Assembly (NCBI RefSeq): GCF_009371975.2
Contig: NZ_VIKT02000001.1
Location: 124,535 to 188,534, forward strand
Length of the DNA stretch: 64,000 nt
Reading direction: 5' to 3'
Source: Microcella pacifica
Lineage (GTDB): Bacteria; Actinomycetota; Actinomycetes; Actinomycetales; Microbacteriaceae
The notes beneath the pieces are model-generated. The model made no database searches. It saw only the letters and a program-made list of their open reading frames with translations, and was not told the DNA's origin. Both the position numbers and the translations under genes were made by a program. Shown here piece by piece: positions 7,303 to 12,741 of this stretch; position 1 is the stretch's first letter, and each line of letters begins with the position of its first letter.

Positions 7303-9273
7303 TCACGCCATCGACGGCGCGAACCTCCTCAGTACCGCGCGGCGCCGCGCTCGACCCGCGGCCAGGCGGGCGATGATGAGCGAGATCGCCGTGAGGATCA
7401 CGAGACTCACCGCCGCCGACACTGCTCGGTCGGCCGAGCCGCCCGCGATGATCGCGGTGAGGCCGTCGGTCGCCTGCGAGAGCGGCAGCACGGCGCTCAG
7501 GGCGGGGAAGGGCGCCGCGAGCGCCTCGATGGGGATGACGCCGCCCACGACGATGACCTGCACGGCGAGCGCGAGAAGCGACACGACGAGCCCGCCGCGG
7601 CCGAGCCACTGGGCGAGGGCAACGTGGAGTGCCGTGAACGCGACCGCGATGAGCGTCATGAGGCCAAGGATGGCGGGCGCGAGCGCCCACGAGACTCCCG
7701 CCACGGTGTGCGCGAGCAGGGTGACGAGGCCCGCCTGCGCGAGCGAGAGCCCGGCGAGCAGCAGTAGTCGGCGCCGCAGGAGGGCTCCCGCCCCGAGCGG
7801 AGAGCCCACCATCGCCGCACCGCGGGCGGGCAGCGCGAGAGTCACGGCCATGGCGCCGAACCAGAGGCCGAGCGGGCCGAGCACGGCGATGATGAGCCCG
7901 CCGACCCCCTCGAGCGCGTTCGCGCGCTCGGCCTCGAGGGTGATCGGCTCGGTCACGGCATCGGGCACGGTCGCGACGTCGTCGGGCACGGATGCTGCGC
8001 CCTCGTCGAGGCCGGCCGCGAGCTCCTCCGTCCCGGCCGCGAGCTCGCTCGCGCCGTCGGCGAGCTCGGCGTTGCCTGCGGCGAGCTGCGCAGCACCGTC
8101 GGCGAGCGAGAAGGCGCCATCGCGCGACTGACCGAGCCCGGCCGCGAGTTCGCCGAGTCCCGCGGCAAGCCCGCGGGCTCCCCCGCGCAGAGCGGCGCTC
8201 TCGCTCGACAGCGCGGCGGCACCGCTCGCGCTGTCGCTCACGCCCGCCTCGATGCCTGCGAGCGCCGGGGTGACCTGCGCGCTCGTGCCTGCGGCGGTCG
8301 CGGCGAGTGTCCGCGCGTCGACGAGCACGGCCTGCGCCTCCGCGATCGTCTCTGCGCTCGCACCGGAGGTCTGCGCCTCGTCCAGTGCCGCTTGAGCCTG
8401 TACCACGAGAGCGTTCGCGAGACTCGAGACGTTCGCGACGGCACCACTGAGGGCACCGAGCGAGCCCGCGGCCGTGTCGAGCTGGGCGAGCCCGGAGGCC
8501 AGGGCGTCCACGCCCTGTGTATACCCGGTGATGCCGGAGGAGAGGGCCGCGGCGCCGTCGGCCGACTCGCGCGCGCCCGCCGTCGCCGAGCCCAGCCCGC
8601 TGCCCAGCGCGCTCGCGCCGCTGCCGAGACCGGAGACGCCGTCGCCGATCTCGCGCACGCCGCCCGCGATCTCGCGGGAACCGTCGGCGAGTTCACCCGC
8701 ACCGTCTGCCGCGGTCTCGAGCGACTCGCCGAGCTCACCGAGACCGCCCGCGAGCTCGTCCAGGTAGAGCGCCGTGATCTCCGAGCCGAACTGCGCGACG
8801 AGGCCGCTGCCGATCGCCTGCATGACCGAGCCGGCCAGGTAGCTGTGGGCGTCGTCGGTCTCGACGCGGATCGACGCCGGCTGAGCATCCGTCTCGGAGA
8901 TCTTCGTGAGCGACGCGGAGAAGTCGGAGGGGATCGTGACGACGGCGTAGACCTCTCCCTCCTCGAGGGCGCGTGCCGCTTCCTCCTGGCCCGTCGGGGT
9001 CCAGTCGAAGCCCACCGAGTCGGGGCCGGTCAGCTCGGTCACGAGCTGACGGCCGGCGAGGAACGGCTGCTCCTCGCCGTCGGCGTCGACCATCGTGACG
9101 AGCTCGTCGTTGTTGACGATCGCCGCGGGAATGCGGTCGAGCGCCTCCTCGCCGTCGCCGACGGCGGCCAGCGCGAGCCCCACGAGACTGAGCGGCACGA
9201 GCACGGCGCCGACGACCATCGCGATGCGGCGCCGCGAGCGCCGGGCGGGCTGGGGTGCGGAGCGGTCGGTCAT
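7303..9273 (-). CDS. YhgE/Pip domain ABC-2-type membrane protein
   Basis: A 656-residue membrane protein. One N-terminal helix (IAMVVGAVLVPLSLVGLALA) is followed by a large extracytoplasmic domain with AIVNNDE and VVTIPSDFSASL, both typical of the YhgE/Pip N-terminal domain. A long region (about residues 190-450) is rich in repeated LADGA/LASGL heptads, likely coiled-coil. Five or six C-terminal helices resemble an ABC-2 permease. Relatives include the Lactococcus phage-infection protein Pip and the ESX-linked YueB. Its ATG overlaps the TGA of the MMPL gene (ATGA), so the two are coupled and probably act together in export of an envelope molecule. The cargo is not evident. Confidence 0.88.
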   Translation of the reverse strand: MTDRSAPQPARRSRRRIAMVVGAVLVPLSLVGLALAAVGDGEEALDRIPAAIVNNDELVTMVDADGEEQPFLAGRQLVTELTGPDSVGFDWTPTGQEEAARALEEGEVYAVVTIPSDFSASLTKISETDAQPASIRVETDDAHSYLAGSVMQAIGSGLVAQFGSEITALYLDELAGGLGELGESLETAADGAGELADGSREIAGGVREIGDGVSGLGSGASALGSGLGSATAGARESADGAAALSSGITGYTQGVDALASGLAQLDTAAGSLGALSGAVANVSSLANALVVQAQAALDEAQTSGASAETIAEAQAVLVDARTLAATAAGTSAQVTPALAGIEAGVSDSASGAAALSSESAALRGGARGLAAGLGELAAGLGQSRDGAFSLADGAAQLAAGNAELADGASELAAGTEELAAGLDEGAASVPDDVATVPDAVTEPITLEAERANALEGVGGLIIAVLGPLGLWFGAMAVTLALPARGAAMVGSPLGAGALLRRRLLLLAGLSLAQAGLVTLLAHTVAGVSWALAPAILGLMTLIAVAFTALHVALAQWLGRGGLVVSLLALAVQVIVVGGVIPIEALAAPFPALSAVLPLSQATDGLTAIIAGGSADRAVSAAVSLVILTAISLIIARLAAGRARRRAVLRRFAPSMA

Positions 9274-12140
9274 GAGAGGAGGGCCTCCGGAGTTCGGGCG
9301 TCGTGGGCGTCGACGGGCGCGAGGGGTTCGAGAGCGAGCGCCGCGGCGTCCTCGCTCGCGGCGTCGCCCGTCACGATGCGGGCAGGGTGCGGCTCGGAGA
9401 GGGCGACGATGAGAGCGTCGACGGCGTCGACCGTCGCGCGTGCGAGCCCACCCGCATCGATGAGGTGCACGGTGGCGCGATGCGCCGTCGCGAGTGCGAC
9501 GAGGGCGAGCGCTCGGCGCTCGGGCGACAACGACACGAGGGTGTCGTCGAGCTCGACGGACGCGAGCGGGGCGGCGGCGCCTCCCAGTCGTCGGGCGGTC
9601 GCCGCGACTCCGCGCCACCAGCGCTCGATCTCGCGCTGCCCCGTGCGGCCGGGGTGCGACGCACGATGCTCGGTCGCGAGTTCGCGCACCGTGACGCTCG
9701 GGTCGAGTCGATGAGGCTCCAGCTCGAGCAGACTCACGCGCTCGCTCGCCGTCCCCGCCTCGGAGGGCAGGAGGGCGCCCGCGATGCGCGCGCGCCCGCT
9801 CGGTGCCGCGAGGTAGCCGGCGAGGGTCGCGAGCACGAGACCGCGCTCGGCGGGCGCCGCATCGACGAGGATGCCCTGCCCCGACTCGACGCGCAGGCTG
9901 AGGGTCTTCTCGGTGCCCGCGATCTCGAGCCGGTCGGCCACGACCTCCGCATCGCCCGCCCCGGCCGCCCACTGGACGGTGTCGCGATGGTGCCGCAATC
10001 GGGCGCCCTCGACGTCGAGGTCGGGCAGCAGCCGGTCGAGGAAGCGCGGGAACCACCAGCCCGCGCGGCCGAAGAGCGTCATGAGCGCGGGCCCGAGCAG
10101 CATGCGCACGACGAACGCGTCGACCGCGATGCCGACGGCGAGCCCGAGGGCGATGGGCTTGATGAGCCCCGCACCCTCGGGCACGAAGGCGGCGAAGACG
10201 AAGAACATGATGAGGGCCGCAGCCGTGACGACGCGGGCTCCGGTCGTGAAGCCCTCCTCGATCGCCTCGCGCGGGGTCGCGCCGTGCACGTGCTCTTCGC
10301 GCATGCCCGAGACGAGGAACACCTCGTAGTCCATCGCGAGGCCGAATAGCACCGCCATGAGGATGATGGGCATGAAGCTCAGGATGGGGCCGGGCTCGGC
10401 GTGCAGCAGCTCGGCGCCCCATCCCCACTGGAAGACGGCGACGGTCACGCCGATCGCGCTGCCGACGGTGAGGAGGAAGCCCAGCGCCGCCTTCACGGGC
10501 ACCAGCACCGAGCGGAAGACGGCCATGAGCAGCACGATCGAGAGGCCGACGACGATGATGCCGAAGGGCACGAGCGCGCCCGTGAGGCGCGTCGAGATGT
10601 CGATGCCGACGGCCGTGACGCCCGTCACGGCGAGCGGGGTGCCGTACTCCTCCTCGATGAGCTGCCCGGTCTCGCGCAGCTCGGCGACGAGAGCCTTCGT
10701 CTCCTGCGCGTCAGGAGCGGTCGTGGGGGCGACGCGGAAGATCGCCAGCTCGAGACCCGGCGACGGGATGCCCGGACTCACGCTCGCGACGCCGTCGACC
10801 GCCTCGAGGTCGTCCCGAATGCCCTCGAGGTCGCCCATGATGTCGGTGGACTGGGTGATGTCGAGGGTCACGAGGAGGGGGCCTGCGGTGCCGGGGCCGA
10901 AGGAGTCGGCGATGAGGTCGTAGGCGATGCGCTGCGTCGAACCCTCGGGCTCCTTGCCGCCATCGGGAAGGTTGAGGTCGAGCGAGAACGCCGGGATCGA
11001 GATGGTGCCGAGCACGAGCACGACGCCGACCGTGGAGAGGATCGGACGGCGCATGACGCCGCGCACCCACCGGCGCCCCATGGTCGGGCGGCTCGACGAC
11101 GTGGGGTGTGCGCGCTTCCAGGCGCGCGACCCCTCGCGGGGGACGAGGCGGTCGCCCGCGAGCCCCATGAACGCCGGGAGCAGCGTCGTCGCGGCGAGCA
11201 TCGCGACGGTCACCGCGACTGCCGCACCGATGCCCATGACGGAGAGGAACGGCACACCGACGACGAGGAGCCCGAGCAGGGCGATGATGACCGTCACGCC
11301 CGCGAACACGACGGCACTGCCCGCGGTGCCCACAGCGATGCCGGCCGACTCGAGTGGTCGCTCGCCTCGGGCGAGCTGGGTGCGGTGTCGGGAGAGGATG
11401 AAGAGCGAGTAGTCGATGCCGACCGCGAGCCCGATCATGAGGGCGAGCAGGGGCGCGGAGCTCGAAACGGGAACGAAGGCCGCGACGCCGAGAATGCCGC
11501 CGAGGGAGATCCCGATGCCGATGAGGGCGGCCGCGAGCGGCATGCCGGCGGCGAGGAGAGACCCGAAGGTCACGACGAGCACGGCCCCCGCGACGAGCAC
11601 GCCGATGACCTCGATCACGGTGATGCCGACCGTGGTGTTCTGAAAGACCTGGCCGGCGAACTCGACGCGCACATCGCGCGCGTCGGCGGTCGCGGTGATC
11701 GCGTCGAGAGTCTCGGTCGAGATCGACTGGGAGGTGCCCTCGAGGCTCGCCTGCACGATCGCGACCGACTCGTCGTCACTCACCTGGTTGCTCGCGAACT
11801 CGTCGAACGGGCCGAGGACGGTCTCGACGCCGGGGATCGACTCGAGGTCGGCCATGAGCGCGTCGATCTCGCCTCGGATGTCGGCATCCGTCACGAGGGA
11901 GTCGTCCTCGGGCGCGACGACCGCCTGCACGGTGGTGCCGGCGGCTTCGGGGAAGAGCTGGTCAAGCTGATCGAGCGCCTCCTGCGACTCGGTGCCGGGA
12001 ATCGAGAAGCTCTCGTCGGTCTGGCCGCCGAGGCTCAGGCCCACGCCGAGAGCCGCCGCGAGGGCGATGACCCACACGGTGATGACGAGCGCGGCGCGGC
12101 GGTAGGCAAAGCGCCCGAGACGGTAGAGGAGGGTGGCCAC
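9270..12140 (-). CDS. MMPL/RND-family transporter fused to a degenerate ABC-ATPase-like domain
   Basis: A 956-residue protein. Residues 1-708 form a full MMPL transporter: two repeats of one helix, an extracytoplasmic loop and five helices (for example TFGSLLAAGMPLAAALIG and MAVLFGLAMDYEVFLVSGMR). About 248 further residues (DNA 9270-10016) are not part of the family. They read like an ABC nucleotide-binding domain that lost its catalytic residues: GQGILVDAAPAERGLVLATL where a Walker A would be, APSGRARIAG after it, then LSPERRALALVALATAHR and ATVHLIDAG where the signature and Walker B would be. There is no GK(S/T). The GTG at 12140 lies one base after the tetR stop, and the gene overlaps the YhgE-like gene. 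It probably exports a lipid or drug under TetR control. Confidence 0.85.
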   Translation of the reverse strand: MATLLYRLGRFAYRRAALVITVWVIALAAALGVGLSLGGQTDESFSIPGTESQEALDQLDQLFPEAAGTTVQAVVAPEDDSLVTDADIRGEIDALMADLESIPGVETVLGPFDEFASNQVSDDESVAIVQASLEGTSQSISTETLDAITATADARDVRVEFAGQVFQNTTVGITVIEVIGVLVAGAVLVVTFGSLLAAGMPLAAALIGIGISLGGILGVAAFVPVSSSAPLLALMIGLAVGIDYSLFILSRHRTQLARGERPLESAGIAVGTAGSAVVFAGVTVIIALLGLLVVGVPFLSVMGIGAAVAVTVAMLAATTLLPAFMGLAGDRLVPREGSRAWKRAHPTSSSRPTMGRRWVRGVMRRPILSTVGVVLVLGTISIPAFSLDLNLPDGGKEPEGSTQRIAYDLIADSFGPGTAGPLLVTLDITQSTDIMGDLEGIRDDLEAVDGVASVSPGIPSPGLELAIFRVAPTTAPDAQETKALVAELRETGQLIEEEYGTPLAVTGVTAVGIDISTRLTGALVPFGIIVVGLSIVLLMAVFRSVLVPVKAALGFLLTVGSAIGVTVAVFQWGWGAELLHAEPGPILSFMPIILMAVLFGLAMDYEVFLVSGMREEHVHGATPREAIEEGFTTGARVVTAAALIMFFVFAAFVPEGAGLIKPIALGLAVGIAVDAFVVRMLLGPALMTLFGRAGWWFPRFLDRLLPDLDVEGARLRHHRDTVQWAAGAGDAEVVADRLEIAGTEKTLSLRVESGQGILVDAAPAERGLVLATLAGYLAAPSGRARIAGALLPSEAGTASERVSLLELEPHRLDPSVTVRELATEHRASHPGRTGQREIERWWRGVAATARRLGGAAAPLASVELDDTLVSLSPERRALALVALATAHRATVHLIDAGGLARATVDAVDALIVALSEPHPARIVTGDAASEDAAALALEPLAPVDAHDARTPEALLS

Positions 12141-12141
12141 G

Positions 12142-12741
12142 TCAGTCCTTGGGGGTCGGGTCGGCGAGGGAGGCGGGGGCAAGCGACTGCTCGGAGGGCA
12201 CGAGCAGTTCGTGCAGGATGACCAGGAGTGCGCCGCGCAGGTCGTCGACGTCGATCTCGCCGCTGAGGCCGAGGCGCTCGGCGGCCGCGAGCGTGTAGGC
12301 GACTCCGCCGAATGCGACGCCGAAGCGCAGCTTCTCCATGGTCGAGCCGCTCGCGAGCCGGAAGAGTTCGGCGACGCGGCGCATGATCTCGGTCGCGCGG
12401 TGCATGACGGGAACGTCATCGAGGGTCGCGCCCTGGTTGATGACGAGGGGAACAACCTCGCGGTGCCGCAGCAGGAGGTCGACGAAGTTCTCGACGAAGT
12501 CGGCGTGGCGTAGCCCGCTCGCGGTGTCGATCGAGTCGAGCAGGCGATCGAGGTCATCGACGGCGGGGCTCACGATGTCGGCGAGCAGCAGCTCTTTCGA
12601 CGCGAAGTGGTAGAGCACGCTCGCCTTCGATGTGCCCGCGAGGTCGGCGATGCGCTGCAGTGAGGTCGCGGCGTACCCGGAGGTCGCGAATTCGGCAAGC
12701 GCGATCGCGCGCAGTTCGTCATGGAGAGTCACGGCGGCCAC
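12142..12741 (-). CDS. TetR/AcrR-family transcriptional repressor
   Basis: A 199-residue regulator. Residues 5-50 form the TetR helix-turn-helix: ALAEFATSGYAATSLQRIAD followed by LAGTSKASVLYHFASKELL. The rest is a helical ligand-binding and dimerisation domain with no recognised ligand. It is first in an operon with the MMPL and YhgE-like genes (one-base gap). Two palindromes immediately upstream are likely operators, giving autorepression and control of the exporter. The GTG at 12741 is used; a second GTG at 12732 also fits the family. Confidence 0.92.
   Translation of the reverse strand: MAAVTLHDELRAIALAEFATSGYAATSLQRIADLAGTSKASVLYHFASKELLLADIVSPAVDDLDRLLDSIDTASGLRHADFVENFVDLLLRHREVVPLVINQGATLDDVPVMHRATEIMRRVAELFRLASGSTMEKLRFGVAFGGVAYTLAAAERLGLSGEIDVDDLRGALLVILHELLVPSEQSLAPASLADPTPKD

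Follow-up and report, generated by a model that had tools for sequence, protein, structure and literature searches.

The C-terminal domain of an MMPL exporter of Microcella pacifica is a degenerate ABC nucleotide-binding domain (NBD), and its similarity to ABC NBDs is not a matter of chance. On balance, we favor the reading that an NBD that once partnered a YhgE-type permease became fused to this exporter, ceased to work as an ATPase and today serves as a clamp between YhgE and a proton-driven pump. The window, that is, the whole 64,000-nucleotide stretch of DNA that was analyzed and to which all positions refer, contains the gene in an operon on the minus strand with the order TetR (12741..12142), MMPL (12140..9270) and YhgE/Pip (9273..7303). 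The TetR-family regulator (12142..12741), the first gene of the operon, has a homolog upstream in 27/27 relatives. The MMPL gene (9270..12140) encodes 956 amino acids from a GTG start in an uninterrupted reading frame, and its product belongs to the MMPL family (PF03176, 4e-82), with both MMPL repeats and the transmembrane bundle present. In the full-length model (pLDDT 80.3, pTM 0.75), this bundle occupies residues 1-693 and the NBD is placed behind it. The third gene (7303..9273, 656 amino acids) encodes a YhgE/Pip family protein, an ABC-2-like permease (PF12698, 7.8e-13), whose N-terminal domain reaches membership of TIGR03061 (8.8e-32; 110 bits against a cut-off of 96.15), while the C-terminal TIGR03062 model is matched over its full length (E = 1.9e-25) at 89.7 bits, under its cut-off of 102.2. 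It is the one YhgE match in the host genome, and PADLOC returned no defence match.

Limits and fold of the C-terminal domain

The initial annotation had read an ABC nucleotide-binding domain by eye into residues 709-956 of the MMPL protein (10016..9273, minus strand). The domain itself is real, as judged from profile matches, predicted fold and transitive homology, but its NBD core begins only at about residue 729 (nucleotide 9956), after a linker, and runs to about residue 927 (9360..9956, minus strand); altogether, the degenerate NBD takes up roughly the last 230 residues of the protein. The conserved linker GWWFPRFLDRLLPDLDVEGARLRHHRDTVQWAAGA (residues ~694-728; 9957..10061, minus strand) is shared in its first half with actinobacterial MMPLs that have no NBD and end shortly past it. 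The strings on which the reading had been built, APSGRARIAG, LSPERRALALVALA and VHLID, are all present in the domain.

Searched as a single sequence, the domain gave nothing convincing against Pfam (no match), NCBIfam or PDB, and the gathering score of PF00005 was not reached by the Microcella domain itself, although fused orthologs from other genomes (L155-L157) do reach it. An unrelated alpha/beta domain that looks NBD-like only to the eye would account for this lack of a family match, but profiles, structure and transitive homology all indicate ABC NBDs, and we give that explanation next to no credence. A profile of 27 orthologs searched against PDB returned top matches that were nearly all ABC NBDs, the best of them collinear over positions 36-249 (EcfA, 2.2e-5; MsbA, 3.7e-5). 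Likewise, with the Microbacteriaceae domain profile, a canonical ABC ATPase encoded in the Microcella genome is matched at 4e-13, and ABC-like ORFs that stand alone in other actinobacteria are matched at about 1e-22. Structure prediction, which might have revealed a segment with no P-loop-like fold, returned an ABC NBD fold by AlphaFold, Foldseek and VIA: with the Microbacteriaceae alignment, the domain was modeled confidently as an NBD (pLDDT 86.1, pTM 0.80) with the RecA-like core and helical subdomain that define the PF00005 fold; a Foldseek search with this model gave 795 matches in the PDB (E <= 0.001), and the best 50 of these are all ABC ATPases or ABC transporters; and its top VIA match is TM_1403 (Z 16.0 over 209 residues). 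Finally, the chain of homology to ABC NBDs is closed by fused orthologs in other genomes, whose P-loops read GSGKT or GTGKT and whose matches to Pfam ABC_tran reach 3.5e-16.

Motif decay and selection

The initial annotation was also right to call the domain decayed, as Walker A, the signature and other ABC motifs have been replaced. The Walker A pattern GxxGxGK(S/T) is broken in the Microcella domain by Arg in place of Lys and by the loss of a glycine, and the GK(S/T) noted as missing has indeed zero occurrences in the domain. Throughout the Microbacteriaceae clade, the P-loop is shortened, and the residues on either side of the Lys position, a glycine in front and a Ser/Thr behind, are both gone. 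The Walker A lysine itself is replaced by Arg766 (DAAPAERGLVLATLAG; 9843..9845, minus strand), which is invariant in the Microbacteriaceae fusions (39/39), whereas the P-loop-intact fusions have Lys (5/5) and most stand-alone genes have Arg (21/23). The Q-loop Gln, LSGGQ, catalytic Glu and H-loop His are all replaced: the signature region survives as a remnant at residues ~867-876 (SLSPERRAL for LSGGQxQR; 9513..9542, minus strand), and the Walker B remnant VHLID (9456..9470, minus strand) keeps Asp895, as do 37/39 Microbacteriaceae fusions, with Ala in place of the catalytic Glu. The ATPase chemistry of the domain has presumably been lost.

Even a degenerate NBD may have kept nucleotide binding, or may team up with an active ATPase from an unlinked gene, and two alternative roles follow these lines. 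In the first, the domain would be a regulatory sensor: Arg766 and Asp895 would still bind a nucleotide, ATP or another, which would not be hydrolyzed, and the domain would gate MMPL or YhgE in response to the energy state of the cell. The near-complete conservation of these two residues fits such a role, as do the many stand-alone relatives with GPSGSGRT, in which the P-loop is otherwise intact; however, with the glycine and Ser/Thr gone and the loop shortened, a phosphate-binding loop is unlikely in Microbacteriaceae, and we regard a sensor as unlikely too. In the second, the domain would be one half of a heterodimeric motor whose other half is an active ABC ATPase from a different locus, so that YhgE is still driven by ATP. 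NBDs act as dimers, asymmetric dimers are known, and the host genome contains many ABC_tran genes that might supply a partner. But no other ABC ATPase gene was found within about 22 kb of the operon on the contig, and none stands consistently in the relatives' flanks, where the initial annotation had suggested looking for a stand-alone ATPase beside orthologous MMPL-YhgE pairs; moreover, with signature and P-loop both gone, neither composite site would be normal. We consider a motor of this kind quite unlikely.

Despite the loss of its motifs, the domain is kept under purifying selection: across eight close pairs, its dN/dS is 0.06-0.30, compared with 0.01-0.17 for the MMPL part. At the same time, it evolves several-fold faster than the MMPL part (mean identity of 33% versus 64%), and part of it may therefore be loosely constrained. 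This pace would also suit a neutral relic, a fused NBD in decay that matters only as a linker or as the carrier of a ribosome-binding site for YhgE. Such a relic is, in our estimation, improbable, considering that dN/dS lies well below 1 in all eight pairs, that the predicted fold is intact, and that the frame is open across 45 relatives, the sole frame change occurring in a draft Clavibacter contig. That locus (L056:10001-12778), which resembles an MMPL-NBD-YhgE triple fusion with a 926-residue tail, was rejected as a candidate, as the frame change lies inside the C-terminal domain.

Linkage to YhgE and forms among relatives

The fusion is not unique to the Microcella genome. A search for it in other Microbacteriaceae, which the initial annotation had proposed, found it widespread there, and the fused domain occurs in 45/99 relatives searched, nearly always within one long ORF. 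Among 80 named loci, YhgE follows all MMPLs that have the domain (27/27), while a separate YhgE gene was found in the flanks of none of the 52 scorable MMPLs that do not (L081, which is cut by a contig end, was excluded from this count). Across the class, a member of the NBD family, either fused or stand-alone, lies directly upstream of YhgE in 33/33 loci; these were chosen by their YhgE match alone, and the NBD member was recognized by profile in 25 and by reading in 8 more (L243-L248, chosen by NBD profile, were excluded, and L242 was dropped for its weak YhgE match). In Microcella, the end of the MMPL pseudo-NBD and the start of YhgE overlap in an ATGA stop/start (9270..9273, minus strand), and such overlaps are found in 25/25 relatives (22 ATGA, 3 GTGA); in most of them, the domain's final codons contain a purine-rich stretch that resembles a ribosome-binding site. 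Domain distances correlate better with those of YhgE (r = 0.73) than with those of the domain's own fused MMPL (r = 0.55), and the domain-YhgE partial correlation (r = 0.59, permutation p = 0.0002) controls for MMPL distance, though not fully for phylogeny. Thus, the suggestion that the domain is a docking module for the YhgE-like ABC-2 protein is well supported at the level of gene linkage, by exclusive co-occurrence, upstream homologs, the 25/25 overlaps and covariation with YhgE beyond that with MMPL.

In a tree of NBDs, the Microbacteriaceae fusions group together as a single clade (SH-aLRT 97). This clade lies within a family of NBDs that are directly linked to YhgE and that separate from the outgroup, which is limited to 11 canonical ABCs, all from one genome, that of Microcella; the tree was made with a quick method and has long branches among the short forms. 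Fusions with an intact P-loop form a branch in other actinobacteria, separate from that of the Microbacteriaceae. These MMPL-NBD fusions with GSGKT or GTGKT come from two other families (L154-L158, L210, L211, L243, L244); YhgE lies directly downstream in the four such loci examined (L210, L211, L243, L244), and the signature, catalytic Glu and H-loop are still non-canonical. They are possibly a two-engine form.

Several further forms were observed. In shortened MMPL-fused NBDs (L159-L165, L170, L172, L174), only about 170-215 amino acids follow the linker, and the signature region and much of the helical subdomain are absent. Stand-alone NBD-like genes upstream of YhgE at eight loci (L214, L216, L218, L224, L225, L226, L237, L241) are more decayed than the Microcella domain, with, for example, GPPGTGHT, in which His takes the Walker A Lys position. 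These eight, together with the short fusion L245, are missed by the Microbacteriaceae profile and were identified by reading; the eight group inside the YhgE-linked family in the tree. At L230, an NBD-YhgE pair is followed within one short stretch by a second NBD of the same family. The MMPL ORF of Kytococcus (L093, 1156 amino acids) also matches the YhgE profile (9e-23); this match, which lies inside the MMPL ORF and probably reflects YhgE-like heptad repeats of Leu/Gly, was not counted.

Proposed role and comparison with known systems

Both proton-relay pairs of the MMPL part, Asp243-Tyr244 (11409..11414, minus strand) and Asp604-Tyr605 (10326..10331, minus strand), are invariant, being kept in 27/27 relatives; by comparison with MmpL3, they are assigned to TM4 and TM10, respectively. 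Because both pairs are retained, proton drive is expected for this exporter by analogy with MmpL3.

We propose that the domain descends from an actinobacterial family of ABC ATPases that are dedicated partners of YhgE/Pip ABC-2-like permeases, and that such an NBD would have been joined to the C-terminus of the neighboring MMPL exporter, with its ATPase chemistry lost afterwards. In an operon presumably controlled by the TetR regulator, the MMPL protein would transport an amphiphilic substrate, with its two intact Asp-Tyr pairs coupling transport to the proton gradient. The pseudo-NBD, cytoplasmic and held on the conserved linker past the last MMPL helix, would still have its ABC surface for gripping YhgE on the cytoplasmic side, thereby keeping YhgE at the MMPL in fixed stoichiometry and possibly passing movement between the two; we infer the physical contact with YhgE, the transmission of movement and the substrate. 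A cytoplasmic-side clamp for YhgE is thus most likely what the pseudo-NBD provides. Its rapid evolution relative to MMPL speaks against a clamp, and so do the short forms found elsewhere, considering that they are missing the helical subdomain, which in ordinary ABC transporters takes part in holding the permease.

Pumps of the RND/MMPL kind are treated as one class and ABC transporters as another, each with a power source of its own, and YhgE/Pip proteins are phage receptors in Gram-positives. With the clamp in place, two usually separate transporter classes appear to be yoked together with one engine left running. More tentatively, and with slightly less than even confidence, we suggest a class of hybrid exporters, each made of an RND/MMPL proton pump coupled to an ABC-2-type YhgE module by an NBD that the two share and that is covalently part of the MMPL, in a series that would range from P-loop-intact forms, possibly with two live engines, to forms with a dead ATPase that run on proton force alone. 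In Microcella, an ABC subunit has turned into part of an MMPL pump. Its living relatives include fused as well as unfused forms, and intact as well as decayed ones, and these forms make it testable how YhgE/Pip proteins are powered. In a literature search that covered few subscription papers or preprints, neither an MMPL-NBD fusion nor an MMPL-YhgE operon turned up.

Comparable arrangements were observed in other actinobacteria. Stand-alone NBD and YhgE pairs (among L212-L241 and L246-L248) have the same NBD family directly upstream of YhgE, but unfused to MMPL, and most carry a GxxGxGRT loop (L246 has SGKT). The P-loop-intact fusions (L154-L158) have the same fusion as Microcella; unlike the Microcella domain, their NBDs keep GSGKT and are recognized as ABC_tran. 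ABC exporters of the TM287/288 type carry one degenerate NBD site; like the Microcella domain, that degenerate NBD is kept by selection, but it pairs with an active NBD, and no such partner was seen for the Microcella domain. The nearest known analogy is MmpL7-DrrABC, which exports the lipid PDIM in Mycobacterium (PMC11539658) and likewise has an MMPL exporter share one pathway with an ABC module of the ABC-2 type (type V). In that system, the proton-relay residues are missing from MmpL7, and the NBD of the ABC exporter DrrABC, DrrA, is a separate, intact ATPase (PMC11539658). TM_1403, the top VIA match of the Microcella domain, is the closest homolog of DrrA with a known structure (PMC11539658). 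The forms described here make testable the cooperation of MMPLs with ABC-2 permeases that is suspected for MmpL7-DrrABC, of which Microcella has the mirror arrangement: an intact proton relay, and a degenerate NBD fused to the MMPL exporter.
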